Shown piece by piece: positions 8,683-42,232 of a DNA stretch of 64,000 bases (the stretch's first letter is position 1; each line of letters begins with the position of its first letter). The stretch covers positions 3,472,001 to 3,536,000 of the forward strand of contig NZ_CP022187.1 in assembly GCF_003111645.1 (NCBI RefSeq), given 5' to 3'. The notes beneath the pieces were generated by a model. The model was given only the letters and a program-made list of their open reading frames with translations. It was not told the origin of the DNA and did not search any database. This DNA comes from Parazoarcus communis. GTDB taxonomy: Bacteria > Pseudomonadota > Gammaproteobacteria > Burkholderiales > Rhodocyclaceae. The translations under genes were made by a program, and so were the position numbers.

Positions 8683-10017
8683 GTGAATACAAATGAACTT
8701 CCGTCCTCCGCACGGGCGTGTGATGTGCTCGTCATCGGGGGCGGGCCGGCGGGCTCGACCGCGGCGGCGCTGCTGGCCGGGAAAGGGCATCGTGTCACCG
8801 TCCTCGAGAAAGCGCACCACCCGCGTTTCCATATCGGCGAGTCCCTGCTCCCGGCCAATCTGCCCCTGTTCGAGAAACTCGGCGTGGCCGACGAGATGCG
8901 CGCGATCGGGATCCGGAAGTACTCGGCCGAGTTTGTGTCGCCCCAGCATGCCGAGCAACAGCGTTTCAATTTCGGTGAGGCATGGGACAAATCCATGCCC
9001 TATGCCTATCAGGTGCGTCGTGCCGAGTTCGACCACATCCTGATCCGCAATGCGGCGGCCAAGGGTGCCGAGGTGATCGAGGGCTGCCGGGTGAAGGACC
9101 TCAGCTTTCATGCGGACGGCGCCACTGTCAGTGCCGAGCACGAAGACGGCCGTCGCGAGCGCTGGTCGGCGCGCTTCGTGATCGACGCTTCCGGCCGCGA
9201 CACTTTCATCGCCAATCGCATGCGCGCCAAGCATCGCAACCCGCTGCACAACAGCTCGGCGATCTACGCGCACTTCGCCGGCGTCCGGCGTCACGACGGC
9301 GACGCCGCGGGGAACATCTCCATCTACTGGTTCGAGCACGGCTGGTTCTGGGTGATCCCGCTGGCCGACGGTGCAACCAGTATCGGTGCGGTAACCTGGC
9401 CCTACTACATGAAGCAGCGCGCCGGCCGCTCGCTGGACGACTTTCTCGCCGACACGATCGCGCTGTCGCCGGCCCTGGTCGAACGCATGCAGGGCGCGAG
9501 CCGGATTTCGCCGACGGAGGCGACCGGCAACTTCTCCTACACCACTGATCACACGCACGGGCCGCACTACATTCTGCTTGGCGATGCCTATGCCTTCATC
9601 GACCCGGTGTTCTCTTCGGGCGTGATGCTGGCCATGCAGGGTGCCTTCTTCGGCGCCGACGCGGTCGACACCTGCCTGCGTCAGCCCGAGCGCAGCAAGG
9701 CGGCCATGGCGCGTTTCGACAAGCTCGTCCGTCATGGTCCGAAGGCCTTCTCGTGGTTCATTTACCGCATGACCAGTCCGACCATGCGTGACCTGTTCAT
9801 GGGCCCGCGCAACCTGCTGCGCATGAAGGAAGCGCTGCTCTCGCTGCTGGCGGGTGACATCTACGGCAAGACGCCGATCTGGCCCTCGCTGCTGGCGTTC
9901 AAGACGGTCTATTACCTGTCGGCCCTGCGCCACCTGCCGCGCACGCTCGCGGCCGGGCGCAAGCGCAAGCGCGACATCCTGCCGGTGGAAGACGGTGAGA
10001 CGGTGGTGCGCGGATGA
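8683..10017 (+). CDS. halogenase-like FAD-dependent oxidoreductase of the pigment cluster
   Basis: 444 residues from GTG 8683. The Rossmann FAD motif VIGGGPAGS is at residues 18-26, then GESLLPAN, the family's second signature. The flavin-dependent halogenase motif WxWxIP is present (WFWVIP, residues 221-226), and a lysine at 79 (GIRKYSAEF) sits where phenol and pyrrole halogenases keep their catalytic lysine. It may halogenate the aryl head, as in brominated xanthomonadins, or act only as an oxidoreductase. It overlaps the chorismatase gene by four bases, which supports a role on the hydroxybenzoyl unit. Confidence 0.85.
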   Translation: MNTNELPSSARACDVLVIGGGPAGSTAAALLAGKGHRVTVLEKAHHPRFHIGESLLPANLPLFEKLGVADEMRAIGIRKYSAEFVSPQHAEQQRFNFGEAWDKSMPYAYQVRRAEFDHILIRNAAAKGAEVIEGCRVKDLSFHADGATVSAEHEDGRRERWSARFVIDASGRDTFIANRMRAKHRNPLHNSSAIYAHFAGVRRHDGDAAGNISIYWFEHGWFWVIPLADGATSIGAVTWPYYMKQRAGRSLDDFLADTIALSPALVERMQGASRISPTEATGNFSYTTDHTHGPHYILLGDAYAFIDPVFSSGVMLAMQGAFFGADAVDTCLRQPERSKAAMARFDKLVRHGPKAFSWFIYRMTSPTMRDLFMGPRNLLRMKEALLSLLAGDIYGKTPIWPSLLAFKTVYYLSALRHLPRTLAAGRKRKRDILPVEDGETVVRG

Positions 10018-11048
10018 GCGGCGGTTCGAAGTTGCAGTTGCTGTCGCCGCTGGATGTCGATGCACCGCTGCCCTCCGCCATCGATCCCGCGCGCGTCTTT
10101 GGCGAGATCCGCTTTGGTGAGGACTGTGCGGCGGGCGAGGCGTTTCCGTGTCTGCGCGTCTGTTCGCCCACCCTGGTGCCGGCGAACCCGTGGCGGGCCG
10201 TGTGGCTCTCCGATCATGCCCTCGTTGCCGGCCGCCACGGACAGGTGGCCTATCGTCACGACGATGAACTGATGTACGGCGTGATCTCGGTCGATGAGTC
10301 GGCGTTCGTCGATACGCCATCGGCGAGCGCCTTGCAGCAGGCCGCCGAGTTCGCCTACCGCGAGGTCTTTGCCGCGCTGGCGCACGCCGGCTTTCCCGGC
10401 TTGCTGCGGGTGTGGAACTACCTGCCGCGGATCAACGAGATCGAGAACGGGGTCGAGCGCTATCGCAAGTTCAACATCGGCAGGCAGGATGCCTTTGCCG
10501 CCTGCGGCCGCGCGCTGACCGGACGAGTGCCTGCGGCCAGCGCGCTCGGGGTGCGCCACGGCGCGCTCGAGATCGGCTTCTTTGCGGTGCGGCGCGCCCT
10601 GCTTGCGGTCGAGAACCCGCGCCAGGTCAGCGCCTATCATTACCCCGAGACCTATGGCCCGCGCAGCCCGACCTTCTCGCGCGCGGCGGTCAGCAGCAGC
10701 ATGGTGCAGGATGTGCTGTTCATTTCGGGTACGGCGAGTATCGTTGGCCATCAGACCCTGCACCATGGCGATGTGGCGGCGCAGACGCGCGAGACGCTGG
10801 TGAATATCGATACCGTGCTGGCCGAGGCGGCGCGGGTTGCCCCGCTGCTGAGTCCGGCGCGTGAGGATCTGGCGTGCCTGGGCTACGTGCGCGACCCTGC
10901 GGATCTTGAGCGCATCCGCGCCGAGGTGCGGCGCGTGATCGGGGATGAAACACAGGTGTGCTACGTTCAGGCGGATATCTGTCGCACCGACCTGCTCGTC
11001 GAAATCGAAGCCAGCGGTGGCCACCCGACTCAAGGAGCTCGTTCATGA
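10014..11048 (+). CDS. xanB2: XanB2-type chorismatase (3-/4-hydroxybenzoate synthase)
   Basis: 344 residues. Chorismatases of the FkbO/Hyg5/XanB2 family hydrolyse chorismate, and XanB2 releases 3- and 4-hydroxybenzoate for xanthomonadin and ubiquinone. Family features are visible: RVWNYLPRINE, ERYRKFNIGRQ, the FSRA segment, FISGTASIVGH and the C-terminal CYVQADICRTDLLVEIE with its conserved Glu. The neighbours (halogenase-like protein before, aryl-polyene genes after) fit supply of the aryl starter. Which isomer is made cannot be read from sequence. Confidence 0.88.
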   Translation: MSGGSKLQLLSPLDVDAPLPSAIDPARVFGEIRFGEDCAAGEAFPCLRVCSPTLVPANPWRAVWLSDHALVAGRHGQVAYRHDDELMYGVISVDESAFVDTPSASALQQAAEFAYREVFAALAHAGFPGLLRVWNYLPRINEIENGVERYRKFNIGRQDAFAACGRALTGRVPAASALGVRHGALEIGFFAVRRALLAVENPRQVSAYHYPETYGPRSPTFSRAAVSSSMVQDVLFISGTASIVGHQTLHHGDVAAQTRETLVNIDTVLAEAARVAPLLSPAREDLACLGYVRDPADLERIRAEVRRVIGDETQVCYVQADICRTDLLVEIEASGGHPTQGARS

Positions 11049-11887
11049 AACCGAACGCACTGTCATCGTTTGCATTAGGTGCGCTGCTTGCCGCAGTGGC
11101 GGCCCTGCCGGCGCATGCCGGCGAGGAAAAGCCGCTGTGGGAGCTGGGCCTGGGCGTGGGGGCGGTGTCCTTTCCCGACTACCGGGGCTCCGACCGGCAG
11201 CGGGTGCATGGGCTCGCAGTGCCGTATTTCGTGTATCGGGGCGAGTTCTTCAAGGCCGACCGTGACGGCATTCGCAGCATCTTCTTCGACAGTGACCGGG
11301 TACAGCTCAATCTGAGTATGTCGGCCTCGCTCCCGGTGGACAGCGACGGCAACAGCGCCCGCCGTGGCATGCCCGACCTCAAGCCGACGGTGGAGATCGG
11401 GCCCTCGCTCGAGTTCAACCTGTGGCGCACCGACTGGCACAATGCGCGCATCGACCTGCGCCTGCCGGTGCGTGCAGCCTATACCGTGAAGGGCCCGGTC
11501 AAACACGTGGGCGTGACCTTCACCCCCTTCATCAACCTCGACATCGACCCCTTCGGCGACTCGGGCTGGAACCTCGGCATGATGGCCGGGCCGATCTACG
11601 CCAATGCCCGTCAGCATCGTTACTTCTACGATGTGAAGCCGGAGTTCGCGCTGTCCGACCGGCCGGCTTACGAGGCCTCGGGCGGCTACTCGGGCGCCCA
11701 GTTCATCACCGCGCTGTCGAAGCGCTTCGACCGTTTCTGGGTGGGCAGCTTTCTGCGCTACGACACCCTGCGCGGCGCCGCTTTTGCCGACAGCCCGCTG
11801 GTTCAGCGCGATCACGCCTGGGCCGCCGGCGTGGCCATTGCCTGGGTGATCGGTGAGTCCTCGCGCAAAGTCGTGGTGGAAGACTGA
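11045..11887 (+). CDS. MipA/OmpV-family outer membrane protein
   Basis: 280 residues starting at ATG 11045, in an ATGA overlap with the chorismatase. A signal peptide (cleavage near AHAGEE) precedes a beta-rich barrel-like sequence with alternating aromatic strands and the family-typical LGLGVGAVSFPDYRGSD start. MipA/OmpV members are outer-membrane barrels, some of them scaffolds. Here it may anchor or expose the pigment or act with the glycosyl/acyltransferases; that is inferred from the operon only. Confidence 0.85.
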   Translation: MKPNALSSFALGALLAAVAALPAHAGEEKPLWELGLGVGAVSFPDYRGSDRQRVHGLAVPYFVYRGEFFKADRDGIRSIFFDSDRVQLNLSMSASLPVDSDGNSARRGMPDLKPTVEIGPSLEFNLWRTDWHNARIDLRLPVRAAYTVKGPVKHVGVTFTPFINLDIDPFGDSGWNLGMMAGPIYANARQHRYFYDVKPEFALSDRPAYEASGGYSGAQFITALSKRFDRFWVGSFLRYDTLRGAAFADSPLVQRDHAWAAGVAIAWVIGESSRKVVVED

Positions 11888-11895
11888 GGCACGCC

Positions 11896-12699
11896 GTGAG
11901 TGCATCAAGCCCCCGCCGGTTTCCGGCACTCTATGAGTATTTCTGTCTCTATTTCGGGCTGTTTGCGCTTGGCGTGCTGTGCCTGGGATGGTCGCTGCTG
12001 GCCGCCATCCTGCATCCCTTCATGCGCGACGGCGCGGCGCGCCGGCTGGGGCGGCGCGCGATCACCGGCGTGTTCCGCATCTACCTGTTCCTGCTCGGGG
12101 CGCTGGGCGCCTGCCGCTTCGACATCAGCGAACTGGATGCGCTTAAGGATCAGGGGCCGATGATTCTGGCGCCGAACCACCCCTGCCTGCTCGATGCGGT
12201 GATGGTGATCGCACGCCTGCCCAATGTGGCCTGCATCATGAAGGCATCCCTGATGAAGAACGTCTTTCTCGGCGGTGGCGCGCGGCTTGCGCGCTACATC
12301 CCGAACGGCCGGCCCTTGCAGATGGTGTATGCCGCCTGCGAGGCGCTGTCCGCGGGCGGCCAGTTGCTGATGTTTCCCGAGGGAACGCGCACGGTGCGTG
12401 CACCGGTCAACGAGATTACGCCCAGTGTGGCGCTGATCGCGCGACGTGCGAAGGTGCCGGTTCAGACCATCATCATCGAGACCGACTCGGACTATCTGTC
12501 CAAAGGCTGGCCCTTGTTCCGGCGTCCGCCGATGCCGATTCACTACCGCGTGCGGCTTGGCCGGCGTTTCGATCCACCTGCCAATGCCACGACGTTCTGT
12601 GGCGAACTCGAGGCTTACTTCGCCGAGGAGCTTGCGCGCGCACGTTTCGTGCCGCCGCAGTTCGCCACCGAGCGCCCGAGCGCGGCGCACACACTCTGA
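11896..12699 (+). CDS. PlsC-family lysophospholipid acyltransferase
   Basis: 267 residues with a GTG start 8 bases after the MipA gene. The acyltransferase motifs are intact: NHPCLLD (NHx4D) near residue 94 and FPEGTRT near residue 160, with two N-terminal hydrophobic segments. Such proteins acylate lipid hydroxyls. In aryl-polyene clusters they are thought to attach the polyene acyl chain to a lipid or sugar carrier. Confidence 0.9.
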   Translation: MSASSPRRFPALYEYFCLYFGLFALGVLCLGWSLLAAILHPFMRDGAARRLGRRAITGVFRIYLFLLGALGACRFDISELDALKDQGPMILAPNHPCLLDAVMVIARLPNVACIMKASLMKNVFLGGGARLARYIPNGRPLQMVYAACEALSAGGQLLMFPEGTRTVRAPVNEITPSVALIARRAKVPVQTIIIETDSDYLSKGWPLFRRPPMPIHYRVRLGRRFDPPANATTFCGELEAYFAEELARARFVPPQFATERPSAAHTL

Positions 12700-12712
12700 T
12701 CCGGCCTCGCCC

Positions 12713-13468
12713 ATGACGTCCTCCTCCACCCATGCGGTATTGATTCCGAGCTACAACCCCGGCCCCAAGGTGTTCGACACCGTGCGCGAGGCGCGCGCGC
12801 AGTGGGCGCCGGTGTGGGTGGTGGTGGACGGCAGTACCGATGGCACCGACGTGCAGCTGCAGGCGATGGCCGCGGAGGACGAGGGGCTGAAGGTCTTCGT
12901 GCTGCCGGAGAATGGCGGCAAGGGGGCTGCCGTGCTGTACGGCCTGGACGAGGCGGCGCGGCAGGGCATCACCCATGTGCTCACCATGGACTCCGACGGC
13001 CAGCATCCTGCCGCCCTGATCCCGCACTTCATGGCCGTGTCCGCGGGCGCGCCCGAGTGCATGGTGCTTGGGCGTCCTGTGTTCGATGCCAGTGCGCCGC
13101 TGTTGCGCGTGCGCGGGCGCAAGATCTCGAACGCCTGGGCCAACCTGGAAACCCTGTGGGTGGGCATCGGCGATTCGCTTTACGGCTTTCGCGTCTATCC
13201 GGTAGCGCCGCTGCGCGCGCTGATGCAGGGGCAGCGCTGGATGCGGCGCTTCGATTTCGACCCGGAGGCGGTCGTGCGTCTGGCCTGGCGCGGCGTGAAG
13301 CCGATCAACATCGATGCGCCGGTGAAGTACTTCAACGCGGACGAGGGCGGGGTGTCGCACTTCAATTACCTGCGCGACAACACCTTGCTGACCTGGATGC
13401 ACTGCAGGCTGCTGCTCGGCTTCATCCTGCGCCTGCCCGTGCTGCTCTGGCGTCGCGTGCGCGGCTGA
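12713..13468 (+). CDS. family 2 glycosyltransferase
   Basis: 251 residues from ATG 12713. GT-A fold: IPSYNP at the N terminus, VVVDGSTDGT, ENGGKGAAV and the metal-binding DxD as MDSDGQH. One hydrophobic C-terminal segment (LLLGFILRLPVLLW) tethers it to the membrane, as in DPM1-like enzymes. It is the last gene of the plus-strand pigment operon and could add a sugar acceptor for polyene acylation. Confidence 0.9.
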   Translation: MTSSSTHAVLIPSYNPGPKVFDTVREARAQWAPVWVVVDGSTDGTDVQLQAMAAEDEGLKVFVLPENGGKGAAVLYGLDEAARQGITHVLTMDSDGQHPAALIPHFMAVSAGAPECMVLGRPVFDASAPLLRVRGRKISNAWANLETLWVGIGDSLYGFRVYPVAPLRALMQGQRWMRRFDFDPEAVVRLAWRGVKPINIDAPVKYFNADEGGVSHFNYLRDNTLLTWMHCRLLLGFILRLPVLLWRRVRG

Positions 13469-13503
13469 ACTCCCCGGCCGGTGTCAGTACGCCGTCCGCA
13501 CGC

Positions 13504-15231
13504 TCACGCGGGTTCGGCCCTCGCCTCAGGGTCGTCCGCAATCCTTAACCGGTTTCTGCCTTCGGCCTTGGCGGCGTAGAGCGCCTTGTCGGCACGCTGC
13601 AGGATGCGCTCCATCGCGTCGCCACGCCCGGCGAGACAGGCACCGACGCTGACCGTGATCGAGGTTTCGTCGGCGAGCTGAATGCCGGTTTCGATGCTGT
13701 TGCGGATGCGCTCGCCCAGGCGCGCAAGGGTGTCGTGATCGCAAGGTGCGAGCAGGATCAGGAACTCGTCCCCGCCCCAGCGCGCAGCGCAGTCGTAGGG
13801 GCGGATGCTGGCGTTGATCAGGCTGCCGACTGAACGCAGCGCCTCGTCCCCGGCCGAGTGCCCGAGGAAGTCGTTGATCTGCTTGAACTCGTCGATGTCG
13901 ATCCAGATCAGGCCGAAGCGGCTTTGCTCGCGTTCGGCGCGTTTGACCTCGGCGTTGATGCGCTCGGTAAAGCCACGGCGGTTCAGCAGCCCGGTCAGGG
14001 GATCCACACTGGCCAGCCGGTGCAGCTCTTCGGTGCGCGCGGCCACACGGTGCTCAAGTTCCTGCGTGTGGCTGCGCACGGATTCGGCCATGGCGCTGAA
14101 ATGACCGGAGAGACGACCGATCTCGCCTTTTGCGGGCGGCAGCGCGAGCGGGTTGAGGTCGCCGTCCCGAACCCGCAGCATGGCGTTCTCGAGGTTTGCC
14201 ACCGGATTCAGCACCCATCGGCTGAGGATGTAGTTGAACAGCAGCAGCGCCACCACCAGCGTCGCGGCAAAGATGAGCAGCACGCTGGTGAAGCTGTGCA
14301 GCGGCATCAGCACATCGAGGTCGAGCATGGTGACTTCGTACCAGTCGAGCTCCGGCAGATAGGCCACGCCCGCGAGGTAGCGCTTGCCCTCGTAAGTGAC
14401 GAAACGGCTGATCACCCGGGTGTCGTGTTCGCGTTCCGGGCCGGCCCCGGCAAGCTCGCGCATCGCGGCGCGGATGAAGGTGCGATCCTGCCCGTCGCTG
14501 AGCAGGCGATCGATGGTGATTTTTTCACCGTCGGTTTTGACGATGCTGGCGTAGTCGATGTAGCGCAGGTCGCGATGCAGCTGGATCGCGCCATTGTGGT
14601 CGACGAAGAGGGTGGTGATGCCGGGTTGGGCAAGCTGGACGATGTCGCGGATGAAGCGGTCGAGGTCGAGTCCGGTGCCGACCACGCCAAGGGTCTCGTC
14701 GCCGTCGCGGATCAGGACGTCGATCCAGAGCTTGGTCATCCCGAGGAATTCGTCCTTGTTGACGTTGAGATGGAATTCGCGGCCCTGACGGATGATTTCG
14801 TAAAACCAGCTGTCCGATGGCGTCGTGGGGCTCAGATGATAGCGGAGTTGCCGACCGGCGTAGTCGTTCTGGGCGTTGTTGTGATAGTAGGCACCCGATG
14901 CGCGCAGCGCGGCAAAATAGCTGCCGTCCTGGAAGTTGCGGCGGAAGGTCTCCATCTCCGTGATCGCTTCCTGCATGTACGCAGGATTGTCGGGCTCCTT
15001 CGCCCAGCGCCGGATGAGTTGCGAGTGCGCCATCTGCCGGGAAAGCGCGATTTCCCGGATCAGCGGCTGCAGGAGCCGGGCGGAGTCGTAACGCACCTGG
15101 GTTTCGACCAGACGCACGCCCCATTGCTCGATGATGCCTTCGGCAATCCGCTGAAATGCAAACCAGCTCGCACCGGAGGCGATCAGGATGATGGCTGCGG
15201 CGAGGATCAGGAAGCGGGGCTTCAGATTCAT
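13504..15231 (-). CDS. membrane diguanylate cyclase (Cache-like sensor, HAMP, GGDEF)
   Basis: 575 residues. A helix at 8-26 and a second near 310-335 enclose a periplasmic sensor domain of Cache type. A HAMP-like linker and a short coiled coil follow, then a GGDEF domain beginning DPLTGLLNRRGF with an intact WGGDEF active site. RPYD, five residues before GGDEF, is a canonical RxxD inhibitory site, so feedback by c-di-GMP is likely. It lies inside the pigment locus, convergent with the glycosyltransferase and 94 bases behind the antiporter, so it may be the distal gene of the long minus-strand operon. Confidence 0.93.
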   Translation of the reverse strand: MNLKPRFLILAAAIILIASGASWFAFQRIAEGIIEQWGVRLVETQVRYDSARLLQPLIREIALSRQMAHSQLIRRWAKEPDNPAYMQEAITEMETFRRNFQDGSYFAALRASGAYYHNNAQNDYAGRQLRYHLSPTTPSDSWFYEIIRQGREFHLNVNKDEFLGMTKLWIDVLIRDGDETLGVVGTGLDLDRFIRDIVQLAQPGITTLFVDHNGAIQLHRDLRYIDYASIVKTDGEKITIDRLLSDGQDRTFIRAAMRELAGAGPEREHDTRVISRFVTYEGKRYLAGVAYLPELDWYEVTMLDLDVLMPLHSFTSVLLIFAATLVVALLLFNYILSRWVLNPVANLENAMLRVRDGDLNPLALPPAKGEIGRLSGHFSAMAESVRSHTQELEHRVAARTEELHRLASVDPLTGLLNRRGFTERINAEVKRAEREQSRFGLIWIDIDEFKQINDFLGHSAGDEALRSVGSLINASIRPYDCAARWGGDEFLILLAPCDHDTLARLGERIRNSIETGIQLADETSITVSVGACLAGRGDAMERILQRADKALYAAKAEGRNRLRIADDPEARAEPA

Positions 15232-15325
15232 TTGGCGGAAGGGCTGCTAAAGTCCCTTGAGATAAGCGGGTCAAGGTAGCACATAAGGATGCAGTGGTTA
15301 AACGCCGGGTACAGGCCGGACATGC

Positions 15326-16630
15326 TCATTCGCGCACCCTCGGCGGCAGTGGGTGACCAATCGCCGGGAGCCAGATGCGAAGGCACGGGGTGGTCAGTAT
15401 GGTGCTGAAGATGGCCATGATCACCAGCATGGTGAACATGGTCTGCGAGATCACACCGAGATCGTAGCCGACGTTGATGACGACCAGCTCCATCAGCGCC
15501 CGGGTATTCATCATGATCCCAAGAATGCCAGCCTCGCCGTGAACTAGTCCGCAACGGCGGGCCGCAAGGTAGGATCCGCCGAACTTTCCGAGTGTGGCGA
15601 GTGCGATCACCAGCGCACACCAGCCCCAGTCGGCAAGGCTGTCGAGACTGCCGATATCGGTGCGCAGACCGGTATAGGTGAAGAAGACCGGCAGAAAGAA
15701 GACGCTTACGAAATGCCCGACGCGCGTGTTCCAGGCCTCGCGCAGGCCGTGTTCGTCGTGCAGGATCACACCCATCAGGAAGCCGCCGAAGATGGCAAAG
15801 ATGCCCAGCTGATAGGTGCACATGCCGGCGCCAAAGATCAGCGCCAGCAGGAACCCCATCAGATTGGGCGGCAGCCGGCCGCGACCGGGGCGGGCACGAT
15901 GCACCAGACGCTTGACCAGCGGGCGCACGACGAACCAGCTCAGGCCGAAGAACACCAGGACCAGCACGATGCGGGTCAGGAAGTCGAGCGCATCGAGCTG
16001 GGCGGCAGCAAGGGTGGAGACCAGCGCCAGCAGCAGCCAGCCCACCACGTCGTTGATCGCGGCTGCGCTGATCGCGATCACCCCGAGCGGGCTGCGGGTG
16101 AGCTGGAACTCGATCATGATGCGACCAAGAATGGGCAGCGCGGTGATCGAGAAAGCGGTGGCCACGAACAGCCCGGACACCAGGGGGTCGGCGCCCGCAG
16201 GTTGCAGCGGTGTGGCCAGCCAGCCGAGGGCGAAACCGAGGGCAAAGGGCAGCGTCAGCCCGGCGCTGGCGACCCATGCCACCGTATGGCGGTGCTTGCG
16301 CTCCGTGAGGTGGCTGAAATCGAACTCGAGCCCGATCTGGAACATCAGCAGCAGCAGACCGATCTGGGACAGGATCTGCATCGGCTCGGGGGGTGCGCTG
16401 CGAAACACGATGTCGAACAGCCCGGGCGCGAGCCAGCCGAACAGCGAAGGGCCGAGCAGGATGCCGGTGACGATTTCGCCGACTACGGAGGATTGCCCCA
16501 GCCGCAGCGCAATCTCGCCCCCCGCACGCGCCACCAGGATGATGACCGCCAGCTGCATCAGGGTGAAGAACAGCAGTGCTTCGGTCTTGTGCACGCCGGC
16601 GGCGTTCAGTGCATTGGCGGCGGTGCTCAT
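15326..16630 (-). CDS. CPA2-type cation:proton antiporter
   Basis: 434 residues, about 12 hydrophobic helices and no C-terminal TrkA-N domain. The N terminus carries VGEIVTGILLGPSLFG and LMFQIGLEFD, the GerN/KefB-type signatures. ATAFSITALPILGR and MNTRALMELVV match the ion-path helices. It follows the ketoreductase gene by 7 bases on the same strand, so co-transcription with the pigment genes is likely. Ion specificity is not readable. Confidence 0.88.
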   Translation of the reverse strand: MSTAANALNAAGVHKTEALLFFTLMQLAVIILVARAGGEIALRLGQSSVVGEIVTGILLGPSLFGWLAPGLFDIVFRSAPPEPMQILSQIGLLLLMFQIGLEFDFSHLTERKHRHTVAWVASAGLTLPFALGFALGWLATPLQPAGADPLVSGLFVATAFSITALPILGRIMIEFQLTRSPLGVIAISAAAINDVVGWLLLALVSTLAAAQLDALDFLTRIVLVLVFFGLSWFVVRPLVKRLVHRARPGRGRLPPNLMGFLLALIFGAGMCTYQLGIFAIFGGFLMGVILHDEHGLREAWNTRVGHFVSVFFLPVFFTYTGLRTDIGSLDSLADWGWCALVIALATLGKFGGSYLAARRCGLVHGEAGILGIMMNTRALMELVVINVGYDLGVISQTMFTMLVIMAIFSTILTTPCLRIWLPAIGHPLPPRVRE

Positions 16631-17360: not shown

Positions 17361-17376
17361 GATCGGGTATCCGGAG

Positions 17377-23681: not shown

Positions 23682-23685
23682 TGCG

Positions 23686-34464: not shown

Positions 34465-34727
34465 GGGCGGCTGGCGATGAAGGCGTCGAGCTGTTCGGCC
34501 AGGTTGCTGACGCTGGAGAGGATGCGGCGTGTCTCCTTGCTGTCGGTCAGGCGCAGGCCGTATTTCTTCTGGATGGCCATCGACAGCTGCAGGGCGTCGA
34601 GCGAATCCAGCGCCAGCGGTGCTTCGGGCCCGAACAGGATTTCGTCGTCGGTGATCGACGCCGGGTCGCAGTCCTTGTCACAGGCATCGACGATCAGTTG
34701 CTTGATCGCATGTTTGAGATCGTTCAT
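34461..34727 (-). CDS. acyl carrier protein 2 (ApeE-like)
   Basis: 88 residues with the phosphopantetheine site LALDSLDALQL. It starts 9 bases after the ABC-2 permease gene and overlaps the fused ketosynthase. It differs clearly from ACP 1, so the two probably serve separate steps, for example starter loading and elongation or polyene and resorcinol branches. Confidence 0.92.
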   Translation of the reverse strand: MNDLKHAIKQLIVDACDKDCDPASITDDEILFGPEAPLALDSLDALQLSMAIQKKYGLRLTDSKETRRILSSVSNLAEQLDAFIASRP

Positions 34728-34736: not shown

Positions 34737-35999
34737 TCAGCGGAGCGCGCGCAGGGCGCGCCGGTTCAGCAGGATCGCGACGGCCAGCGCCGCGAGGCCG
34801 AAGGATAGCAGTGCGGCGGCGGGGCCGAGGACGTCGGCGATGGCGCCGCCGCGCAACATCACGCGGTGAAAGCCGTCCAGCGCCCATGCCATCGGCGACA
34901 GGTCGGTCAGGGGCTGCATGCCGGACGGCATGACGAATTTCGGCACCATGATGCCGCCGATCGCACCCATCAGGATGTTGCCGACACCGCCGATCACGGT
35001 GGCCTGCTCGGTGCTGCGCGCGCTGCTGGCAATCAGGAGGGCCCAGGCCACGGCGGCGACGCTGACCGCCGCGCTCATCAGCCACAGCGCGAGCAGCGAG
35101 GCGGCGCCCGTGGGCAGGGTGAGGGCTTCGCCGCCGGCGAGCGGTACGAGATAGCGTCCGACCAGCACCATCAGCACCGCCTGCACCTGATTGACGACAA
35201 AGAAGGGCAGCAGCTTGCCGGCGAGGATCAGGCCGAAGGACACCTGCTGCGTGGCCAGGCGCTGCAGCGTGCCGTGCTGGCGCTCGGCGATGAAGACGGC
35301 AGAGATCGGCACCACGACGAAGAACATCGAGAAGATCAGCCATGCAGGCACGTTCTGCTGCACCGATGAAGGCAGGGGGGCGGCGCTTTCCGACCCGTCG
35401 GCGAGCGTGGGCTTGCGAACGGCTTCGACCACGACCGGAAGGGGTGGTGCCTTGCCCGCCACGTCGCGCAGTTCGGGGATCAACAGGCTGCGCCCGATGC
35501 GCGCGAGCAGGGTGCTCAGTTGCAGGCGGGTGAGTTCGGCTTCGACCTGCTGGCGAAAGCCGTTGCGCACGGCCAGCGGCACCGTGGGGTCGGCGAGCAG
35601 GCGCACGCCTGCCGCTTCATGGCCTGCGCTGGCGGCGCTGCCAAGCGCGTGTTCGAAGCCTCGCGGCACCACGAGTACGAAGGCAATCCGACCGTCCGCC
35701 ACCGCTTCGCGCCCGGTCTGCTCGCTGTCCAGGGTGCCGAACTCCCGCAGCAGGTCGATGCCGGCGAGCTGTCCCTCCAGCGCCTGCGAGGCTTCGCTGC
35801 GGTCGAGGTCGACGATGGCGTAGCCCAGATCGGCGGGTACGCCGGGTACGAAGGCGTCGCGCAGTGCCATCGACATCACCAGGATGAAGATGGCCGGCAT
35901 CAGGAACAGGGCGGCCAGCCCGTGACGATCGCGCAGCAGCGCAAGCGCTTCCTTGCGCCACAGGGCGGCTAGCCGGATCAGGGCGCGGGCTGCAGTCAT
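34737..35999 (-). CDS. ABC-2 type transporter permease
   Basis: 420 residues. An N-terminal helix (LAALFLMPAIFILVMS), a large extracytoplasmic domain (about residues 45-230), then five helices, the YhhJ/YbhS layout. It forms an export complex with the ATPase encoded 3 bases upstream. The position between BtrH-like and ACP genes suggests export of the pigment or its precursor. Confidence 0.9.
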   Translation of the reverse strand: MTAARALIRLAALWRKEALALLRDRHGLAALFLMPAIFILVMSMALRDAFVPGVPADLGYAIVDLDRSEASQALEGQLAGIDLLREFGTLDSEQTGREAVADGRIAFVLVVPRGFEHALGSAASAGHEAAGVRLLADPTVPLAVRNGFRQQVEAELTRLQLSTLLARIGRSLLIPELRDVAGKAPPLPVVVEAVRKPTLADGSESAAPLPSSVQQNVPAWLIFSMFFVVVPISAVFIAERQHGTLQRLATQQVSFGLILAGKLLPFFVVNQVQAVLMVLVGRYLVPLAGGEALTLPTGAASLLALWLMSAAVSVAAVAWALLIASSARSTEQATVIGGVGNILMGAIGGIMVPKFVMPSGMQPLTDLSPMAWALDGFHRVMLRGGAIADVLGPAAALLSFGLAALAVAILLNRRALRALR

Positions 36000-36002
36000 T
36001 GT

Positions 36003-36926
36003 TCAGTCCCGCAGCGAACGCCGGGTCAGGTGCATGAACACCTGCTCGAGGTTCTGCTGGCCGTGGTTCAGGGCCAGCGGCGTGAGCCCGTGCGCGGCGA
36101 GATCCCGCAGGATCTGCGGCAGCGCGGCGGCAGGGACCGGGGTCAGGCAGATGCTGTTCGCGCCCTGCGTCGTGACCGTATGCGCTGCCTCCCAGCGCTT
36201 GAGCAGCGGCTGTGGCAGATCGCGGTCGAGGCGGAGCAGCAGTTGCGACTCGCCGGCACCGAGCACCTCGGCCAGCGTGCCGCTGGCGAGCACCCGGCCG
36301 TGGTCGATGATGGCGATACGGTCGCAGATGGCTTCGACCTCATCCATGTAATGGCTGGTGTAGATCACCGTCTTGCCGGCGTCGCGCAGGTCGCGGATGG
36401 CGTCGAGAAGGAAGTGGCGTGACTGCGGATCGACACCGACGGTGGGCTCATCCAGCAGCAGCAGCGCGGGGTCGCCGAGCAGGCCGATGGCAAGGTTAAG
36501 CCGCCGGCGCAAGCCGCCGGAGAGTTCGCCGGCAAGCTGTCTGGCGACGCTCTCGAGGCGGGCGAAACGGATGGCCTCGCTGCTGCGGGCTTTCTGCTGA
36601 TGCCGGTCCAGCCCCTGCACCCCGGCAAAGAAGGCGAGGTTCTCGGTGACCGTCAGCATGGGGTAGAAGGCGTAGTCCTGCGGTACCAGGGCAATCGCGT
36701 TGGGGCGGGCGCGGCGGAAGTCCGACAGCGTCTGAGCGCTGACCCTGATCTGCCCCTGCTGCGGGGCGATGAGGCCGGCGATGAGCGAGATCAGCGTGGT
36801 CTTGCCCGCGCCGTTGGGGCCGAGCAGGCCGAACAGACTGCCGCGTCCGACATCGAGCGTGATGGCATCGAGGGCAGCCGTGCTGGCGCTGCGATAACGA
36901 TGGCTGATGCGCTCGATGGCGATCAT
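36003..36926 (-). CDS. ABC transporter ATPase
   Basis: 307 residues. Walker A GPNGAGKTT, Q-loop VPQDYAFYP, signature LSGGLRRRL, Walker B LLLLDEPTVG and the switch His in YTSHYMDE. A C-terminal extension of about 80 residues is like that of DrrA/CcmA-type exporters. It overlaps the BtrH-like gene by four bases and pairs with the downstream permease. Confidence 0.93.
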   Translation of the reverse strand: MIAIERISHRYRSASTAALDAITLDVGRGSLFGLLGPNGAGKTTLISLIAGLIAPQQGQIRVSAQTLSDFRRARPNAIALVPQDYAFYPMLTVTENLAFFAGVQGLDRHQQKARSSEAIRFARLESVARQLAGELSGGLRRRLNLAIGLLGDPALLLLDEPTVGVDPQSRHFLLDAIRDLRDAGKTVIYTSHYMDEVEAICDRIAIIDHGRVLASGTLAEVLGAGESQLLLRLDRDLPQPLLKRWEAAHTVTTQGANSICLTPVPAAALPQILRDLAAHGLTPLALNHGQQNLEQVFMHLTRRSLRD

Positions 36927-37933
36927 TGGATGGCGCGGTCGAGGCTGCCGAAGAAGGTCTTTTCGCGGGCCGCCTGCTGGCGCAGCAGGGCGGCCAGACG
37001 GGCCGGATCGAAGGGGTCGCGGTCGCGGATCATGCGCGCGGTGGCGAGCGCGAACTCACGCCAGCCGTCGCCGATCTCGACCAGTTCGCCGGCCAGTTCG
37101 GCCAGCGCCGGACGCGCCGCGAGGCTGGCGGCCTCTTCGAGGAAGGAGGCGTACATGTAGCGGAAACCGCCGCCACCGGTGCCGATTTCCTCCTGCATCC
37201 GCACCAGGTGGCCGACGAAGAGCTTGGATTTCTGCAGATCGCCAGTCGCGGGCAGGCGCTCGACGGCGCGCGCCACCCGCTCCATGCCGCGAATGCCGAT
37301 CAGCGGAATCGGCGCGCGCAGCATGATGCGCACCGTCTTGCGGATGGCTGCAGGAATCGCCTTGCGCCAGTCGGGCTCGCTCGGGCGTGTTTCCGGGTAG
37401 TAGAGCAGGCCCTTGGGCGCGAGCACGCCGCGGGCGAAGCGCGCACGGGCGAGGTCGGCCGGTGCGCAGCGCACCGGCTCTTCGAACACCGGGTCGGACA
37501 GCAGGTATTCGCCGCTGGCGCTGTCGCGGCCATAGGCGAGCACGTTGTGGGCGTTGAAGTGAAAACGCATGTCGTCGGGGAAATACGGCAACCAGAACAC
37601 CGAGGTCTGCAGGCCGACCACCTTGCCCTCGTCGAGCAGGCTGTTGAGCCGTGCTTCGCCACGTTCAGTGGAGCGGAAGGTTTCGGTGCGCATGCGGATG
37701 CCAAGCGGTTTCTGCAGGCCGCGGATGATTGCGCGCGGCGGCATGCGGTAGGCCACCAGCGGCAGGCCGCCGAGCTTGATGAAGGGCAGGTAGGCGAAGG
37801 ACACGGCCGAAGACAGGCCGAGCGCCATCGGCTCGGACAGGGGCAGGCCGTAGTGGCGCACGATGGCCGACATCACGCCGCTCTCGCAGTGCGAGGCGTG
37901 CTGGTGGCTGAACGTGTTTGGGGTGTCCTGCAT
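36923..37933 (-). CDS. BtrH-like acyltransferase of the pigment cluster
   Basis: 336 residues. The N terminus reads HCESGVMSAIVRHYGLPLSE, the BtrH_N signature with a putative catalytic Cys16. His129 in FNAHNVLAYG and Asp147 in LLSDPVF would complete a papain-like triad. A helical C-terminal domain follows. BtrH moves an acyl group from a carrier protein to an amine in butirosin synthesis. Here it may move a polyene from ACP to its acceptor, possibly the dialkylresorcinol. It begins immediately after the 131-residue gene. Confidence 0.82.
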   Translation of the reverse strand: MQDTPNTFSHQHASHCESGVMSAIVRHYGLPLSEPMALGLSSAVSFAYLPFIKLGGLPLVAYRMPPRAIIRGLQKPLGIRMRTETFRSTERGEARLNSLLDEGKVVGLQTSVFWLPYFPDDMRFHFNAHNVLAYGRDSASGEYLLSDPVFEEPVRCAPADLARARFARGVLAPKGLLYYPETRPSEPDWRKAIPAAIRKTVRIMLRAPIPLIGIRGMERVARAVERLPATGDLQKSKLFVGHLVRMQEEIGTGGGGFRYMYASFLEEAASLAARPALAELAGELVEIGDGWREFALATARMIRDRDPFDPARLAALLRQQAAREKTFFGSLDRAIQ

Positions 37934-38329
37934 TCAATCCACCCCCTTGAGCTGGTCGACGCTGATGCCCAGCGCCTCGGCGTAACGTGCGAGCAGGGCA
38001 GGACGCAGTCGGGCAAAGATGTCCGGGCGCAGGTGACGGCGCACCCGCCATGCCCAGATGCCGCTGATCTGGGACAGCAGGGTGAGATCCATGCGTGCCT
38101 TGTACATGTGGTACTCAAGCGGCGACGTGCTGCCTGCACGTGCCCGCTTGCGCGCGTCCGCCGCAAGACGGTCGAGGTCTTCCACCGCCTGCAGGGTGAC
38201 GATTTCCTCGGCCTCCCAGCCGCTCGAAGGCACGATGCCGATGCGGCCGTCGGCGCCGCGCGCGTACATGGCCTTGCGGTGGCCGCCGAGGGTGGCGTTG
38301 CCTTCCTGTGGAACTTCGTTTGCGTCCAT
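37934..38329 (-). CDS. 131-residue protein of unknown function
   Basis: Soluble, mixed charge, no signal peptide or membrane helix. The C-terminal half is helical and basic (YHMYKARMDLTLLSQISGIW, then RRHLRPDIFARLRP). ATG 38329 lies 2 bases after the DarB stop, and the stop abuts the BtrH-like start. I do not recognise the family; tight placement suggests a helper of the resorcinol or acyl-transfer step. The longer in-frame extension to 38794 would lie within darB and was rejected. Confidence 0.7.
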   Translation of the reverse strand: MDANEVPQEGNATLGGHRKAMYARGADGRIGIVPSSGWEAEEIVTLQAVEDLDRLAADARKRARAGSTSPLEYHMYKARMDLTLLSQISGIWAWRVRRHLRPDIFARLRPALLARYAEALGISVDQLKGVD

Positions 38330-38331
38330 CG

Positions 38332-39486
38332 TCAGACCACGGTCAGGTGCATGAAACCGCTGGAGAAGCGGCCGCTTTCGGGTACGAAGCACAGCAGGCG
38401 CTCGCCTTCGCTCAGGCGGCCGCTGCGCAGCAGTTCGTCGATCATGATGTAGATCGAGGCCGCGCCGGTGTTGCCGCGGGTCGCGAGGTTGGTGAACCAG
38501 CGCTCGGGGGCGATCGGCAGGCCGAGCCCGCGCAGGCAGTCGGCGATCTGGTCGCGGAAATAGTGCGAGGACATGTGCGGCAGGAACCAGTCGATCCGGT
38601 CGGCGCGGAGCTGGCGACGCTCGATCAGCCGGCGCAGCGGCGCTTCGAGCGTGCTTGCGACCACCTGCTCGTTGAGCAGACGCACGTCCTGCTTGATGGC
38701 GAAGATCGACTCCTTGCCCCAGGCCTCGGGCGCGTACCCGGCCCAGCCCTGCAGTCTGCCGTCTTCGTCGCGCTCGCCGCCGGCATACATGCACACCGGC
38801 TGGGCGTGGGCCTGCGACGAGAGCTCGATCCAGTCGATGCGCAGTGCGCGTGCACCGGTGCGCGGTGCATCCTGCAGCAGGAAGGCGCCGGCGCCGTCGG
38901 ACAGCATCCAGCGCAGGAAGTCCTTCTCGAATGCGATCTCGGGGTGACGCTCGAGTGCGGCCACGCGGTGCTCGTTCTCGGCCTCGAAACTGCTCCCGCG
39001 CAGCACCGCCGAGGGGCGGTCGGAGCCGGTGGTGACGGCGTTGCGCGTGTTGCCGGCGAGCACCGACAGCCAGCCATACTTGAGCGCGGCGAGTCCGGCA
39101 AGGCAGATGCCTGCGGTGCTGACGACTTCACATGCGGGGTTGCCGAGTTCGCCGTGCACCATCACACCGTGATTGGGCATGAGCTGGTCGGGCAGCGAGG
39201 TGCCGGTGGCAAGGCATTCGATGTCGTCGAGCGCAAATCCGTCTGTCGCCAGTCCGCGAATGGCCTCGGCCGTCATGCCGGCGTTGCTGTGGGTGGCTGC
39301 GCCGGTCGCGGGGTCGATGGCGTAGTGGCGCTGGCGGATGCCGTTGTTGCGCAGCACGATGCGGCGGGCACGCGAAGGCCGTTCGCCGATGCGGCCAAGT
39401 ACCGACTCGATAGCCTCGTTGTCGACGGGGGCATTGGGCAGGCAGGTGGCCGTGGCGGTGATATATACGGAGCGGGGTTCAGTCAT
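38332..39486 (-). CDS. darB: DarB-like ketosynthase III for dialkylresorcinol synthesis
   Basis: 384 residues, longer than FabH (about 320). The KAS III triad is complete: Cys128 (STAGICLAG), His304 (FLPHMSSH) and Asn339 (LATRGNTGAAS). DarB enzymes condense two beta-oxoacyl units into a cyclohexanedione, later aromatised to a resorcinol. Assignment rests on the adjacent darA-type gene and the fold. A plain FabH-type initiator is the alternative. It overlaps darA by 8 bases. Confidence 0.83.
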   Translation of the reverse strand: MTEPRSVYITATATCLPNAPVDNEAIESVLGRIGERPSRARRIVLRNNGIRQRHYAIDPATGAATHSNAGMTAEAIRGLATDGFALDDIECLATGTSLPDQLMPNHGVMVHGELGNPACEVVSTAGICLAGLAALKYGWLSVLAGNTRNAVTTGSDRPSAVLRGSSFEAENEHRVAALERHPEIAFEKDFLRWMLSDGAGAFLLQDAPRTGARALRIDWIELSSQAHAQPVCMYAGGERDEDGRLQGWAGYAPEAWGKESIFAIKQDVRLLNEQVVASTLEAPLRRLIERRQLRADRIDWFLPHMSSHYFRDQIADCLRGLGLPIAPERWFTNLATRGNTGAASIYIMIDELLRSGRLSEGERLLCFVPESGRFSSGFMHLTVV

Positions 39487-40420
39487 GTTCGGTCATGCGT
39501 GCGTTGCCCGAACCGGAGGGCTGTTCGTAGCGCGCGCGCAGCGCATCGAGGCGGTTCCGGAGCAGGGGTGCGAAGCTGCGCTGCAGCACAAGGCTCAAGG
39601 GTACCACCGTAATAATCAGGACGATGAGGTAGGTCACAAACAGCGCGAGCGCCGGCACCCGGCGCAGTTGTCCCGGTTTGCCGAACAGGCGTACGAAGCC
39701 GGACCACACGCGAAAGGCGCGCTGCCCGGCGCGTTCGCTGACCACCAGGCGCGGATTGACGCTGACGGCGCGCAGGCCGGTGAGCATCGGGGCCCCGCTG
39801 CGCTCCTCGTCCCGCGCCAGCGCCGTGACCAGCGCATGGCCGAAGCGTGCTGCAGCAGCAGCCTCGGCTGGCGTGACCCCGGCGGCAGGCAGGCCGAAGA
39901 AACGGTCGCGGCGGCCGGTGAACATCCAGCGCGGCGTGGTGATGAAGGTTGCCAGCGGGTGGGCGTTGTCGGTGAAGGCGACGTGATCCGTGAGGTGCGC
40001 GCCGGCGGCACCGAGCAGCGTTACGAGCTTGTCGTAGGCCGTCATCCACATGTTGCGGCAGGCGACCACGCTGACCACCGGCTTTCCCGCCAGCAGGCGC
40101 TTGCCTTCGTCGCTTTGCAGGAAGGCGGTGACCGGCTGCGAGGGCGACAGGTACCACACCTGCCAGGCCAGGATCACGAGGTCGAAATCGGTGTCCGGCG
40201 CCACCGTCAGCGGCAGATTCGGCCGCGGATCGAGGCGCACCGACTCGGGAAAGGCGTCGAGGAAGCGGAAGAAGGGCCACGGGAAGGGGAAGGGCGTCTG
40301 CGGGCGCAGGACTTCCTGGTGCACCCGGACGCCGGCGTCCTCGAGCGGGCGCAGCATCGCGGACACAACATCCGACAGCTGGCCGCTCTGCGAATAATGG
40401 ACAACGAGAACGTTCTTCAC
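39479..40420 (-). CDS. darA: DarA-like flavodoxin-fold enzyme of dialkylresorcinol synthesis
   Basis: 313 residues with a GTG start. Flavodoxin-like N terminus (VLVVHYSQSGQL, FMN phosphate loop), LVILAWQVWYLSPSQP and VSVVACRNMW, then a C-terminal hydrophobic helix (about residues 265-288). This matches proteins named DarA beside darB in dialkylresorcinol and flexirubin clusters, where the DarA/DarB pair makes the resorcinol; oxidative aromatisation would suit a flavin fold. The exact step is recalled knowledge, not shown by sequence. Confidence 0.8.
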   Translation of the reverse strand: MKNVLVVHYSQSGQLSDVVSAMLRPLEDAGVRVHQEVLRPQTPFPFPWPFFRFLDAFPESVRLDPRPNLPLTVAPDTDFDLVILAWQVWYLSPSQPVTAFLQSDEGKRLLAGKPVVSVVACRNMWMTAYDKLVTLLGAAGAHLTDHVAFTDNAHPLATFITTPRWMFTGRRDRFFGLPAAGVTPAEAAAAARFGHALVTALARDEERSGAPMLTGLRAVSVNPRLVVSERAGQRAFRVWSGFVRLFGKPGQLRRVPALALFVTYLIVLIITVVPLSLVLQRSFAPLLRNRLDALRARYEQPSGSGNARMTEHD

Positions 40421-40432
40421 TGGCAGGGCCGG

Positions 40433-42232
40433 TCAGTTGGTGATCTTGTGCAGTTCGAGACCGGAGAACAGCAGCACCTTCTCCTTGCCCGCGCTGGTGG
40501 CGAGGATGGTTTCGCCCTTGCCGGTGCCAAGCCCCGAAACCAGCAGTTCGGTGTCCGAGATCGGGTTGAGGCCGATGCGCAGCACGAAGCCGGGAAGCTC
40601 GGAGAAGCTGCACTCGCCGACCAGCAAGCCGTCCTCGAGGCGCAGGGCGAGGCGGTCGGGCATGATCCCCAGCTTCTGGCCGACGATGCGGTATTCGCCG
40701 ACATAGTCGAGCAGACGCTGCGGCACGGGGGCGGGCTTCAGGCGCTCGCCGACGAGCATGGTGTCGTCGCCGAAGTGCCCCACCAGCACGTCGCGGTCTG
40801 CCACCTTCTTCATCGAGACGCGGATGCCATCGAAGGCGCTGACCTGCACCGGGATCATGCCGAACAGCTTGTAGCGCAGACCAAACTGCCCGGCCGGACG
40901 CGGCTTCAGTTGCAGCGTATGGCCCATCACGCTGGCGTCGAGCGCATCGTCACCCGGCCGCACCCTGACCAGCCCGACCATCGAGTCGTACCACGCCGAG
41001 TAGCGTGCGAGCTGTTCCGGTGGCAGGGCCACGTCGGCGCTGGAGGCCGGCACCGGCTCGGGCTGAACGATGCCGGCCTTGGCTTCGAGGGCCAGCTTCA
41101 GCGCCTCGGTGGCGACGGTCTTGACCACGCCCTGCGAGGTAGCTGAATTGGATGCGACGATGATGCCGAGTTTGTGCTCGGGCAGCACCACCATCATGCT
41201 GTGGGAGTCGAGCAGGGTGCCGCCGTGACTGGCAACGGTGCCCGCGTTGCGGATCTCGATGCCCGACAGCAGCCAGCCCAGCCCGACGCGAAAGCCCATG
41301 TCGAGCTGAACATGCGCGTTCTGCGGGCGCAGCATTTCGGCAAGGCTGTCGGCGCCGAGCAACTGCTGCCCGCCGGCACGGCCGTCGGCAAACACCCAGC
41401 GCATGAAGCGGCTCATGTCGTCGACGTTCGATACCAGCCCGCCGGAGGGCAGGTCGCGCAGCGCCAGTGCGTCGATCTCCTCGTGCCTGTTGTAGACCTT
41501 GAGCGCAGGCTTCGACTCGAAGCGCGTATTCACCATGCCCAGCGGGTTCAGCAGGCGCTGTTGCAGATGCTCACCGAAGGGGATGCCGGCGGTATGCTCG
41601 ATTGCCGCGCCCAGCAGGCTCACCGCGAGGTTGGAGTAGCCGAAGATGAACTCGGGCGGATAGGCGACGTATTCGTTGCGCACCGCGTCCACCAGGCTGG
41701 TGAAGGGCGCAGGTGCCGAGGTGGTCAGCATGCCGCTCAGGTGGTTGGCGGGCAGGCCGGAGTGGTGATGCATGATGTTGCGGGGGGTGATCGGCGCAGC
41801 ATTGTCGAAGCGCGATCGCACCGAAAATGCGGGCAGCGCGTCCCGCAGCGGACGGTCGATGTCGATGCGGCCCTCTTCTGCAAGCTGCATGGCTGCGGTT
41901 GCCGTGAGCACCTTGGCGATCGACCCGAGCCGGTAAGGGGTGTCCGGCGTGGCGGCAATCTCGCGCTCGGCGTCTTCGTAGCCGAAGCCCTCGGACCAGA
42001 CCACGCGCTGGTCGTCGACCAGTGCGACGGAGAGTCCGGTGACCCTGTTGTCCGCCATCTCCTGCTCGATCAGCCAGCGGGCGCGCTCGATTGCATAGCG
42101 GAAGTCGCCGCGCTGAAGATCTGGCGGGCGCTGTGGCGCAGTGGCGCAGGCGCCCAGCACCAGCACGCATGCGCTCAGGGCGAGGTGACGGAGAAACGGG
42201 CGGAAGCCGGGAGCGGGGCCTGATGCGGACAT
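40433..42232 (-). CDS. lipoprotein serine hydrolase / transesterase (beta-lactamase fold)
   Basis: 599 residues from ATG 42232. The lipobox LVLGAC puts the lipidated residue at Cys29. The catalytic domain (about residues 40-360) has SxxK as GSIAK and YxN as YSN in FGYSNLAV, the class C beta-lactamase/EstB pattern. The C-terminal 200 residues are beta-rich. It is the first gene of the minus-strand pigment operon, 12 bases before darA. An envelope esterase is likely; a LovD-like acyl transfer joining pigment parts is possible. Confidence 0.85.
   Translation of the reverse strand: MSASGPAPGFRPFLRHLALSACVLVLGACATAPQRPPDLQRGDFRYAIERARWLIEQEMADNRVTGLSVALVDDQRVVWSEGFGYEDAEREIAATPDTPYRLGSIAKVLTATAAMQLAEEGRIDIDRPLRDALPAFSVRSRFDNAAPITPRNIMHHHSGLPANHLSGMLTTSAPAPFTSLVDAVRNEYVAYPPEFIFGYSNLAVSLLGAAIEHTAGIPFGEHLQQRLLNPLGMVNTRFESKPALKVYNRHEEIDALALRDLPSGGLVSNVDDMSRFMRWVFADGRAGGQQLLGADSLAEMLRPQNAHVQLDMGFRVGLGWLLSGIEIRNAGTVASHGGTLLDSHSMMVVLPEHKLGIIVASNSATSQGVVKTVATEALKLALEAKAGIVQPEPVPASSADVALPPEQLARYSAWYDSMVGLVRVRPGDDALDASVMGHTLQLKPRPAGQFGLRYKLFGMIPVQVSAFDGIRVSMKKVADRDVLVGHFGDDTMLVGERLKPAPVPQRLLDYVGEYRIVGQKLGIMPDRLALRLEDGLLVGECSFSELPGFVLRIGLNPISDTELLVSGLGTGKGETILATSAGKEKVLLFSGLELHKITN

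Follow-up and report, generated by a model that had tools for sequence, protein, structure and literature searches.

A compact arc and dar pigment locus of the arcuflavin type, and a B12-binding radical SAM gene that tracks its arylpolyene genes

Which pigment is encoded where arylpolyene and dialkylresorcinol (DAR) genes share one locus, and which of the enzymes standing among them could decorate it? The question is raised by a stretch of 64,000 nucleotides from Parazoarcus communis (contig NZ_CP022187.1, positions 3,472,001 to 3,536,000; referred to here as the window), part of a genome of one contig (4,572,081 bases) that was taken as Azoarcus sp. TSPY31, a strain isolated from oil-contaminated sediment (PMC7825797). 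Pfam and NCBIfam scans of the open reading frames (ORFs) between 8.6 and 42.3 kb recovered a xanthomonadin-type aryl-polyene set together with a dialkylresorcinol set, and the locus is a new, compact example of the already known arcuflavin-type arc + dar system. The best explanation of the whole, to which we give a probability of about 0.85, is a compact arcuflavin-type pigment locus in which a B12-binding radical SAM protein acts as an accessory of the arylpolyene arm.

Gene content and kinship with the BH72 loci

The pigment locus comprises 32 genes, the first five on the plus strand and the remaining 27 on the minus strand. A sequence-only reading had proposed a full aryl-polyene set and a darA-darB pair in one locus, and a counterpart ORF was found for every part it named. 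The locus holds a XanB2-type chorismatase, of a kind whose reaction is not deducible from sequence alone (PMC3949708), with an aryl-AMP ligase; a type II ketosynthase (KS) and chain-length factor (CLF), ketoreductase (KR), dehydratases (ArcI being a weak match) and acyl carrier protein (ACP) of the arylpolyene type; and darA-darB with an ACP, a KS and a BtrH-like acyltransferase. The proposed arcuflavin type was likewise upheld by a gene-by-gene comparison with Azoarcus sp. BH72, which is known here by its printed annotation alone (Table 1 of PMC3949708), supplemented with the sequence of genome G274, taken as A. olearius DQS-4T, of the species that includes BH72.

Table 1 lists arcA to arcX and darA to darK in three separate loci (PMC3949708), against one locus in the window and in P. 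communis SWub3 (G767, loci L147-L148). Most window genes match arc or dar genes by annotation and place: both strains have the chorismatase, ligase, ACP, KS/CLF, KR, dehydratases, methyltransferase, deacetylase and glycosyltransferase, as well as the acyltransferases, exporter, LolA protein, halogenase-like arcA, BtrH-like darE and darA-darB. Window genes lacking a counterpart in Table 1 encode a GGDEF protein, which stands at the arcF place of BH72, a patatin protein, the radical SAM protein, which sits between arcV and darJ, and a terminal hydrolase. A composite locus is not in itself new, since nine genomes with DAR genes inside or beside the polyene cluster have already been reported (PMC3949708).

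Chance does not account for the gene set: SWub3 shows the genes in the same order, and DQS-4T retains that order blockwise. In SWub3 the locus is single and compact, and its order agrees with the window throughout the stretch that starts with arcA and closes with the beta-lactamase-fold gene; it includes the radical SAM and patatin genes, and protein identity is 57-90%. Strain TSNA42 (as which genome G357 was taken) also has a single locus within the mapped extent, with the window order kept from arcE to past the hydrolase and arcA 2.4 kb before that stretch. The parts are split in DQS-4T as in BH72; two small ORFs, PilT- and Phd-like by eye, lie there between darI and darF, and darJ and darK are two ORFs, compared with seemingly one in the window (32884-34464).

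The genes are given below. Where the longest ORF was not the right one, another frame was adopted (ArcI 17377-17838, ArcJ 17835-18632, ArcR 27300-28268, ArcS 28259-28585); the discarded longest-ORF frames, for arcI, for arcR and at 18179-18415, looked Arg-rich by eye.

8611-10017, plus: ArcA-like halogenase-like enzyme dependent on flavin adenine dinucleotide (Trp_halogenase 5e-37; true start may be further in)
10014-11048, plus: ArcB-like chorismatase, predicted 3-hydroxybenzoate supply (FkbO_Hyg5-like_N 1e-35)
10958-11887, plus: ArcC, MipA-type outer membrane protein (MipA 1.5e-45; start approximate)
11896-12699, plus: ArcD, PlsC-type acyltransferase (Acyltransferase 1e-14)
12701-13468, plus: ArcE, family-2 glycosyltransferase (Glycos_transf_2 4e-15; start approximate)
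13504-15231, minus: HAMP-GGDEF diguanylate cyclase (GGDEF 6e-46; SWub3 has one too)
15326-16630, minus: ArcG, Na+/H+ exchanger (PF00999 5e-55)
16638-17417, minus: ArcH, ketoreductase (adh_short 2e-52; FlxB model 280 bits, under its cut-off of 340)
17377-17838, minus: ArcI, putative dehydratase, ApeP-like hot-dog fold (weak match; no match in the NCBIfam scan; same place in relatives)
17835-18632, minus: ArcJ, CLF-like ketosynthase partner (Ketoacyl-synt_2 3e-29; PDB 7f28_A first, 6qsp_B second)
18629-19834, minus: ArcK, ketosynthase (NF006618 542 bits, over its cut-off of 407; top PDB match 6qsp_A)
19883-20596, minus: ArcM, methyltransferase (Methyltransf_25 6e-8)
20593-21408, minus: ArcN, NodB-type polysaccharide deacetylase (PF01522 2e-28)
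21465-23681, minus: patatin + POTRA + Omp85 protein, between arcN and the ArcO-like gene
23686-24345, minus: alpha/beta-hydrolase-like protein, probable ArcO (weak Abhydrolase_5; same place in DQS-4T, 63%)
24356-26890, minus: ArcP, MMPL/RND exporter (MMPL 3e-12; top NCBIfam match HpnN, 62 bits, far under cut-off)
26737-27303, minus: ArcQ, LolA-like carrier (LolA_3 5e-27)
27300-28268, minus: ArcR, lipid-A-type acyltransferase (PF03279 4e-13)
28259-28585, minus: ArcS, dehydratase, ApeI/FabA-like (FabA 2e-8, ApeI-like 2e-5)
28582-29940, minus: ArcT, aryl-AMP ligase (AMP-binding 2e-18)
29950-30609, minus: ArcU, hydrophobic protein (no Pfam match; kept in place in relatives)
30609-30896, minus: ArcV, acyl carrier protein (PP-binding 3e-7; NF006617 136 bits, over its cut-off of 70)
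31087-32712, minus: B12-binding radical SAM protein (Radical_SAM 7e-24, B12-binding 2e-15; CxxxCxxC at 211)
32884-34464, minus: DarJ, ketosynthase, seemingly fused to DarK (Cys137, His257, His292)
34461-34727, minus: DarC, acyl carrier protein (PP-binding 8e-5)
34737-35999, minus: DarI, ABC-2 permease (PF12698 3e-31)
36003-36926, minus: DarF, ABC ATPase (PF00005 2e-30)
36923-37933, minus: DarE, BtrH-like acyltransferase, candidate ester-forming enzyme (BtrH_N 2e-46; NCBIfam 'DarH_acyl' model NF053550 466 bits, over its cut-off of 300)
37934-38329, minus: DarD, conserved protein (no Pfam match; counterpart in 71 of 80 DarB-centred loci)
38332-39486, minus: DarB, ketosynthase/cyclase (top PDB match StlD 5gk0, 2e-149)
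39479-40420, minus: DarA, aromatase
40433-42292, minus: serine hydrolase, class C beta-lactamase/esterase fold (PF00144 1e-60; adjoins darA in the Azoarcus group)

To its left the locus is flanked by genes for cytochrome c biogenesis, alanine racemase and chemotaxis, to its right by phenylacetate genes. A TIR-domain protein with weak Thoeris ThsB similarity over its first 70 residues is encoded beside the locus (43361-44923, minus strand). The terminal hydrolase at 40433-42292 stands beside darA in 4 of the 80 DarB-centred loci (L014-L017) and in DQS-4T; all of the best 25 of its 36 NCBIfam matches score below cut-off, and it is a candidate for handling of the pigment ester.

The predicted product

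The product is likely an arylpolyene-dialkylresorcinol ester of the type of arcuflavin, a yellow pigment, each step of which we infer for this strain by homology. ArcB would convert chorismate to 3-hydroxybenzoate and ArcT would load this onto ArcV. Extension with malonyl units by ArcK/ArcJ, reduction by ArcH and dehydration by ArcI and ArcS would then give the aryl polyene, whose ring ArcM is predicted to O-methylate. DarJ and DarC would supply a beta-keto acyl chain; DarB would condense and cyclise two such chains, and DarA would aromatise them to the dialkylresorcinol. DarE is the putative esterifying enzyme that would join the polyenoyl group to the dialkylresorcinol, and ArcP/ArcQ and DarF/DarI would carry the products to the envelope. 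ArcD, ArcE, ArcN and ArcR probably make an arylpolyene glycolipid as well. Insertion mutants of BH72 in arcK or arcT lost the pigment (PMC3949708).

Several of the single calls are well backed by conserved residues and family models. ArcK keeps the active-site residues Cys162, His292 and His326, and by eye no Cys motif of this kind was seen in ArcJ; PDB entry 6qsp, matched by both, is presumably the Xenorhabdus ApeO:ApeC pair, its chains being named just 'Beta-ketoacyl synthase' and 'Uncharacterized protein'. Both acyl carrier proteins have DS[IL] motifs. The ArcA-like protein, 78% identical to its DQS-4T counterpart, has a WxWxIP motif at residue 245 that is also present in all nine orthologue loci checked, and ArcE found matches of 71-78% identity in six of eight genomes searched, of 54% in one and none in G288. 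DarB passes the NCBIfam StlD/DarB model NF005293 (604 bits, cut-off 450). Pfam and NCBIfam scans of DarA gave no match at E<=0.001, and the call is made because of its pairing with darB, a counterpart being present in 78 of the 80 DarB-centred loci.

Other results weigh against the reading of the locus as an arcuflavin system. ArcB reaches 224 bits against TIGR04444, under the cut-off of 325. The ApeP-like match of ArcI amounts to 12.3 bits where the cut-off is 27, DarB fails the narrower resorcinol_DarB model (500 bits, cut-off 550), and among the scanned window ORFs no counterparts were seen of arcL, arcF, arcW/X and darG/H as annotated in BH72.

The two arms might also work separately, so that a xanthomonadin-like lipid would be made beside free dialkylresorcinol, with no ester between them. 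Genome G311, of the same genus, has arc genes but gave no matches to darB and the radical SAM gene; its arcV adjoins cupin and TIR genes, so the block from the radical SAM gene through dar is missing from that place; G372 has arc and radical SAM genes and no darB match, and the envelope-attachment genes for ArcD, ArcE, ArcN and ArcR are present in the window. Against this, DarE passes the DarH acyltransferase model, both arms stand in one locus on one strand, and the authors detected no free DAR in BH72 extracts (PMC3949708), all of which makes separate products very unlikely. For expression of the whole pathway, completely sequenced strains with a single compact locus make a better start than BH72, where the loci are scattered over three places; natural controls exist too, G311 for 'arc only' and G372 for 'arc + radical SAM'.

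For the predicted ester, the enzymes outside the minimal set had suggested a more decorated product, and for most of them this fell away. The BtrH-like (darE), halogenase-like (arcA) and NodB-type deacetylase (arcN) genes already figure in the BH72 list, and the published description of arcuflavin is that of an aryl-heptaene without bromine (PMC3949708). The patatin + POTRA + Omp85 gene is a lineage-specific insert found, among the mapped loci, in TSPY31, TSNA42 and SWub3 only, and missing from the DQS-4T and G311 loci. What stood is the radical SAM gene, the sole unlisted companion that is kept in other arylpolyene genomes.

The radical SAM gene tracks arylpolyene genes

Matches were counted at E<=1e-60 for the radical SAM gene, 1e-50 for arcT, 1e-40 for arcN and 1e-100 for darB. 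Four samples of 150 family genomes were treated as identical, since their listed handles agree; co-occurrence was tallied from genome listings, and kinship was handled by genus count alone. The radical SAM gene was matched in 21 of the 150 family genomes (window genome included), in 2 of 398 phylum-wide genomes (TSPY31 and G024; three candidates per genome scored) and in 3 of 188 genomes of the class of an Opitutia metagenome-assembled genome. Within the family, arcT and arcN were each found in 39 genomes and darB in 18. ArcT was present in 20 of the 21 radical SAM carriers versus 19 of the 129 non-carriers (Fisher 3e-13), and by genus in 11/12 with the gene versus 10/56 without it (2e-6); the 20 carriers with arcT are the same 20 that have arcN. 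For darB the counts were 10/21 in carriers versus 8/129 in the others (Fisher 7e-6). Thus the gene tracks arylpolyene genes more than resorcinol genes. A role linked to DAR was set aside on the counts of darB inside arcT carriers (10/20 with the radical SAM gene, 5/19 without it, p 0.19), which leaves the DAR link weaker, not absent.

Genomic place points the same way. Of the 21 carriers, 13 have an arc or dar gene no more than 20 kb from the radical SAM gene, as follows.

Carriers within 20 kb: G000 (window genome), G357, G267, G274, G298, G111, G329 (taken as Azoarcus sp. DD4), G351 (19 kb from darB), G218, G356, G372, G384 and G391 (smaller of two partial matches counted, beside arcA)

Its next neighbour varies within the Burkholderiales, being arcV, arcA, arcB or arcE. 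The gene is also found in the arylpolyene loci of two of the three Opitutia genomes: darA adjoins it in G768, and arylpolyene KS-, ACP- and ligase-like genes of low identity (23-54%) lie near it in G783. Between TSPY31 and G768 the radical SAM protein is 72% identical, compared with 62% for DarB and 24-53% for the matched Arc proteins, so either it has moved independently of the other genes or a stronger constraint acts on it. In a search for a partner gene in 20 stretches around the radical SAM gene, by rough gene calling (in G382 even the radical SAM ORF went uncalled), only arc/dar families recurred in more than three.

Two further arrangements were observed. In G372, arcV is followed by the radical SAM gene, next to which a KS-ACP pair (L153:9577-11162) stands where the window has dar. 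In the Opitutia loci L158-L159 (G768) and L165 (G783) another radical SAM match, a distant one (22-27%), lies near arcP.

The model strain itself probably has the gene. In DQS-4T our gene calling placed it between arcX and darK as the seventh of 18 ORFs, equal to the number implied by azo0264-azo0283, and the numbering of BH72 leaves room for 18 genes there, azo0265-azo0282 (PMC3949708). Judged from this synteny and gene count, its probable place in BH72 is near azo0271; no mention of azo0270-azo0273 was found in the BH72 literature searched.

The association has exceptions that count against an accessory role in the pigment pathway. For 8 of the 21 carriers no arc or dar gene was shown inside a distance of 20 kb: the radical SAM gene is 31 kb from darB in G385, about 1.2 Mb from arcT in G291, and on other contigs, some of them short, in G364, G310, G347, G382 and G273, and in G288 the searches for arcT, arcN, arcA and arcE gave nothing. 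These cases would fit a gene that merely shares genomes with the cluster and has no pigment role, as would the presence of just a ketoreductase match near it in Opitutia G837 and of an orthologue in only 3 of the 80 DarB-centred loci (L014, L015, L080), though 32 of these are under 15 kb. We nevertheless consider this unlikely: the neighbours change yet pigment genes stay near, in both Burkholderiales and Opitutia, and in genomes of a single contig seven of eight carriers have the gene within 20 kb of pigment genes.

Possible reactions and comparison with known systems

With its CxxxCxxC motif and N-terminal B12-binding domain, the protein belongs to the B12-binding radical SAM superfamily and is predicted to bind cobalamin. 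Among the 24 NCBIfam matches listed no family reaches its cut-off, the top one being HpnJ (TIGR03471) with 160.8 bits against 577.6. A tree was built of 56 rows, which included 36 of 37 paralogue loci (L192 left out, as none of its frames passed the filter), 10 of 25 earlier rows and two more radical SAM rows; 16 of its 53 inner forks are drawn open and several rows are long branches. The 11 radical SAM orthologues formed one 100/100 clade on a long stem, a 27% relative (L089) fell outside it, and eight true HpnJ proteins lay in a separate 22-row clade (98/99). Membership in HpnJ was rejected on both score and clade, and the radical SAM protein thus belongs to a family of its own. An AlphaFold model from a four-row alignment had a mean predicted local distance difference test score (pLDDT) of 48 and was not used.

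Six PDB entries matched the protein, AprD4 (6fd2) best, followed by TokK and with tryptophan C2-methyltransferase and CysS, which we take to be a methyltransferase, also among them. Together with the B12-binding and radical SAM domains, TokK, tryptophan C2-methyltransferase and CysS suggest a B12-dependent C-methyltransferase that methylates the aryl polyene. This possibility is tentative, for the best match is AprD4, whose NCBIfam model bears a diol-dehydratase name, none of the listed families reaches its cut-off, and BH72 fed with methionine formed an M+3 species, equivalent to one methyl (PMC3949708). The authors account for the arcuflavin mass with one methyl, the aryl-heptaene and DAR (PMC3949708), which makes a retained C-methyl on the BH72 ester unlikely if the gene is active there. 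BH72 arcuflavin can be explained with no radical SAM step, a point against the accessory role, though BH72 probably has the gene. We infer that the radical SAM protein most likely acts by an oxygen-independent radical reaction and tailors an arylpolyene product distinct from the resorcinol ester.

No link between a radical SAM protein and xanthomonadin or dialkylresorcinol biosynthesis was found in the titles and abstract openings searched, with subscription papers and supplements outside that scope, and the main text of the celluxanthene and flavoaffinin papers has no radical SAM protein. Should the association be functional, work on the model system has missed a conserved gene that accompanies arylpolyene clusters, and an unknown modification may be present on the arylpolyene lipid of these bacteria; this is the part of the locus worth following up.

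One such modification would concern the head group. The head of the Xenorhabdus arylpolyene lipid is reportedly an amino-sugar phosphate-glycerol, and an amino sugar is also the substrate of AprD4. The structure of the arylpolyene lipid is stated as solved (PMC8253772). Hopanoid biosynthesis runs through a glycosyltransferase, then a deacetylase, then HpnJ, the radical SAM step to bacteriohopanetetrol cyclitol ether, with HpnN as the exporter (PMC12583986); the arc set of ArcE, ArcN, radical SAM protein and ArcP recalls this route. By this analogy, the protein could be the founding member of an undescribed arylpolyene tailoring family (Rhodocyclaceae, Opitutia) that remodels, like HpnJ, the amino-sugar head of a glycolipid made by ArcE and ArcN, and one polyene would then lead to two products, a resorcinol ester and a modified glycolipid. 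We regard the idea as rather improbable, as it is weakened by the lack of HpnJ kinship in the tree, the window protein differing from HpnJ in both score and clade, and by the absence of a PF01522 match on the locus contig of Opitutia G768 and G783.

For the composite locus itself, the closest described systems besides BH72 are flexirubin clusters. The window differs from these in its chorismatase, with no lyase, and so no tyrosine ammonia-lyase, among the Pfam matches of the ORFs scanned at 8.6-42.3 kb. Like the window, the flexirubin cluster of Chitinophaga pinensis joins an arylpolyene to a dialkylresorcinol, and it shares deacetylase, glycosyltransferase, LolA and exporter genes with it (PMC3992019).

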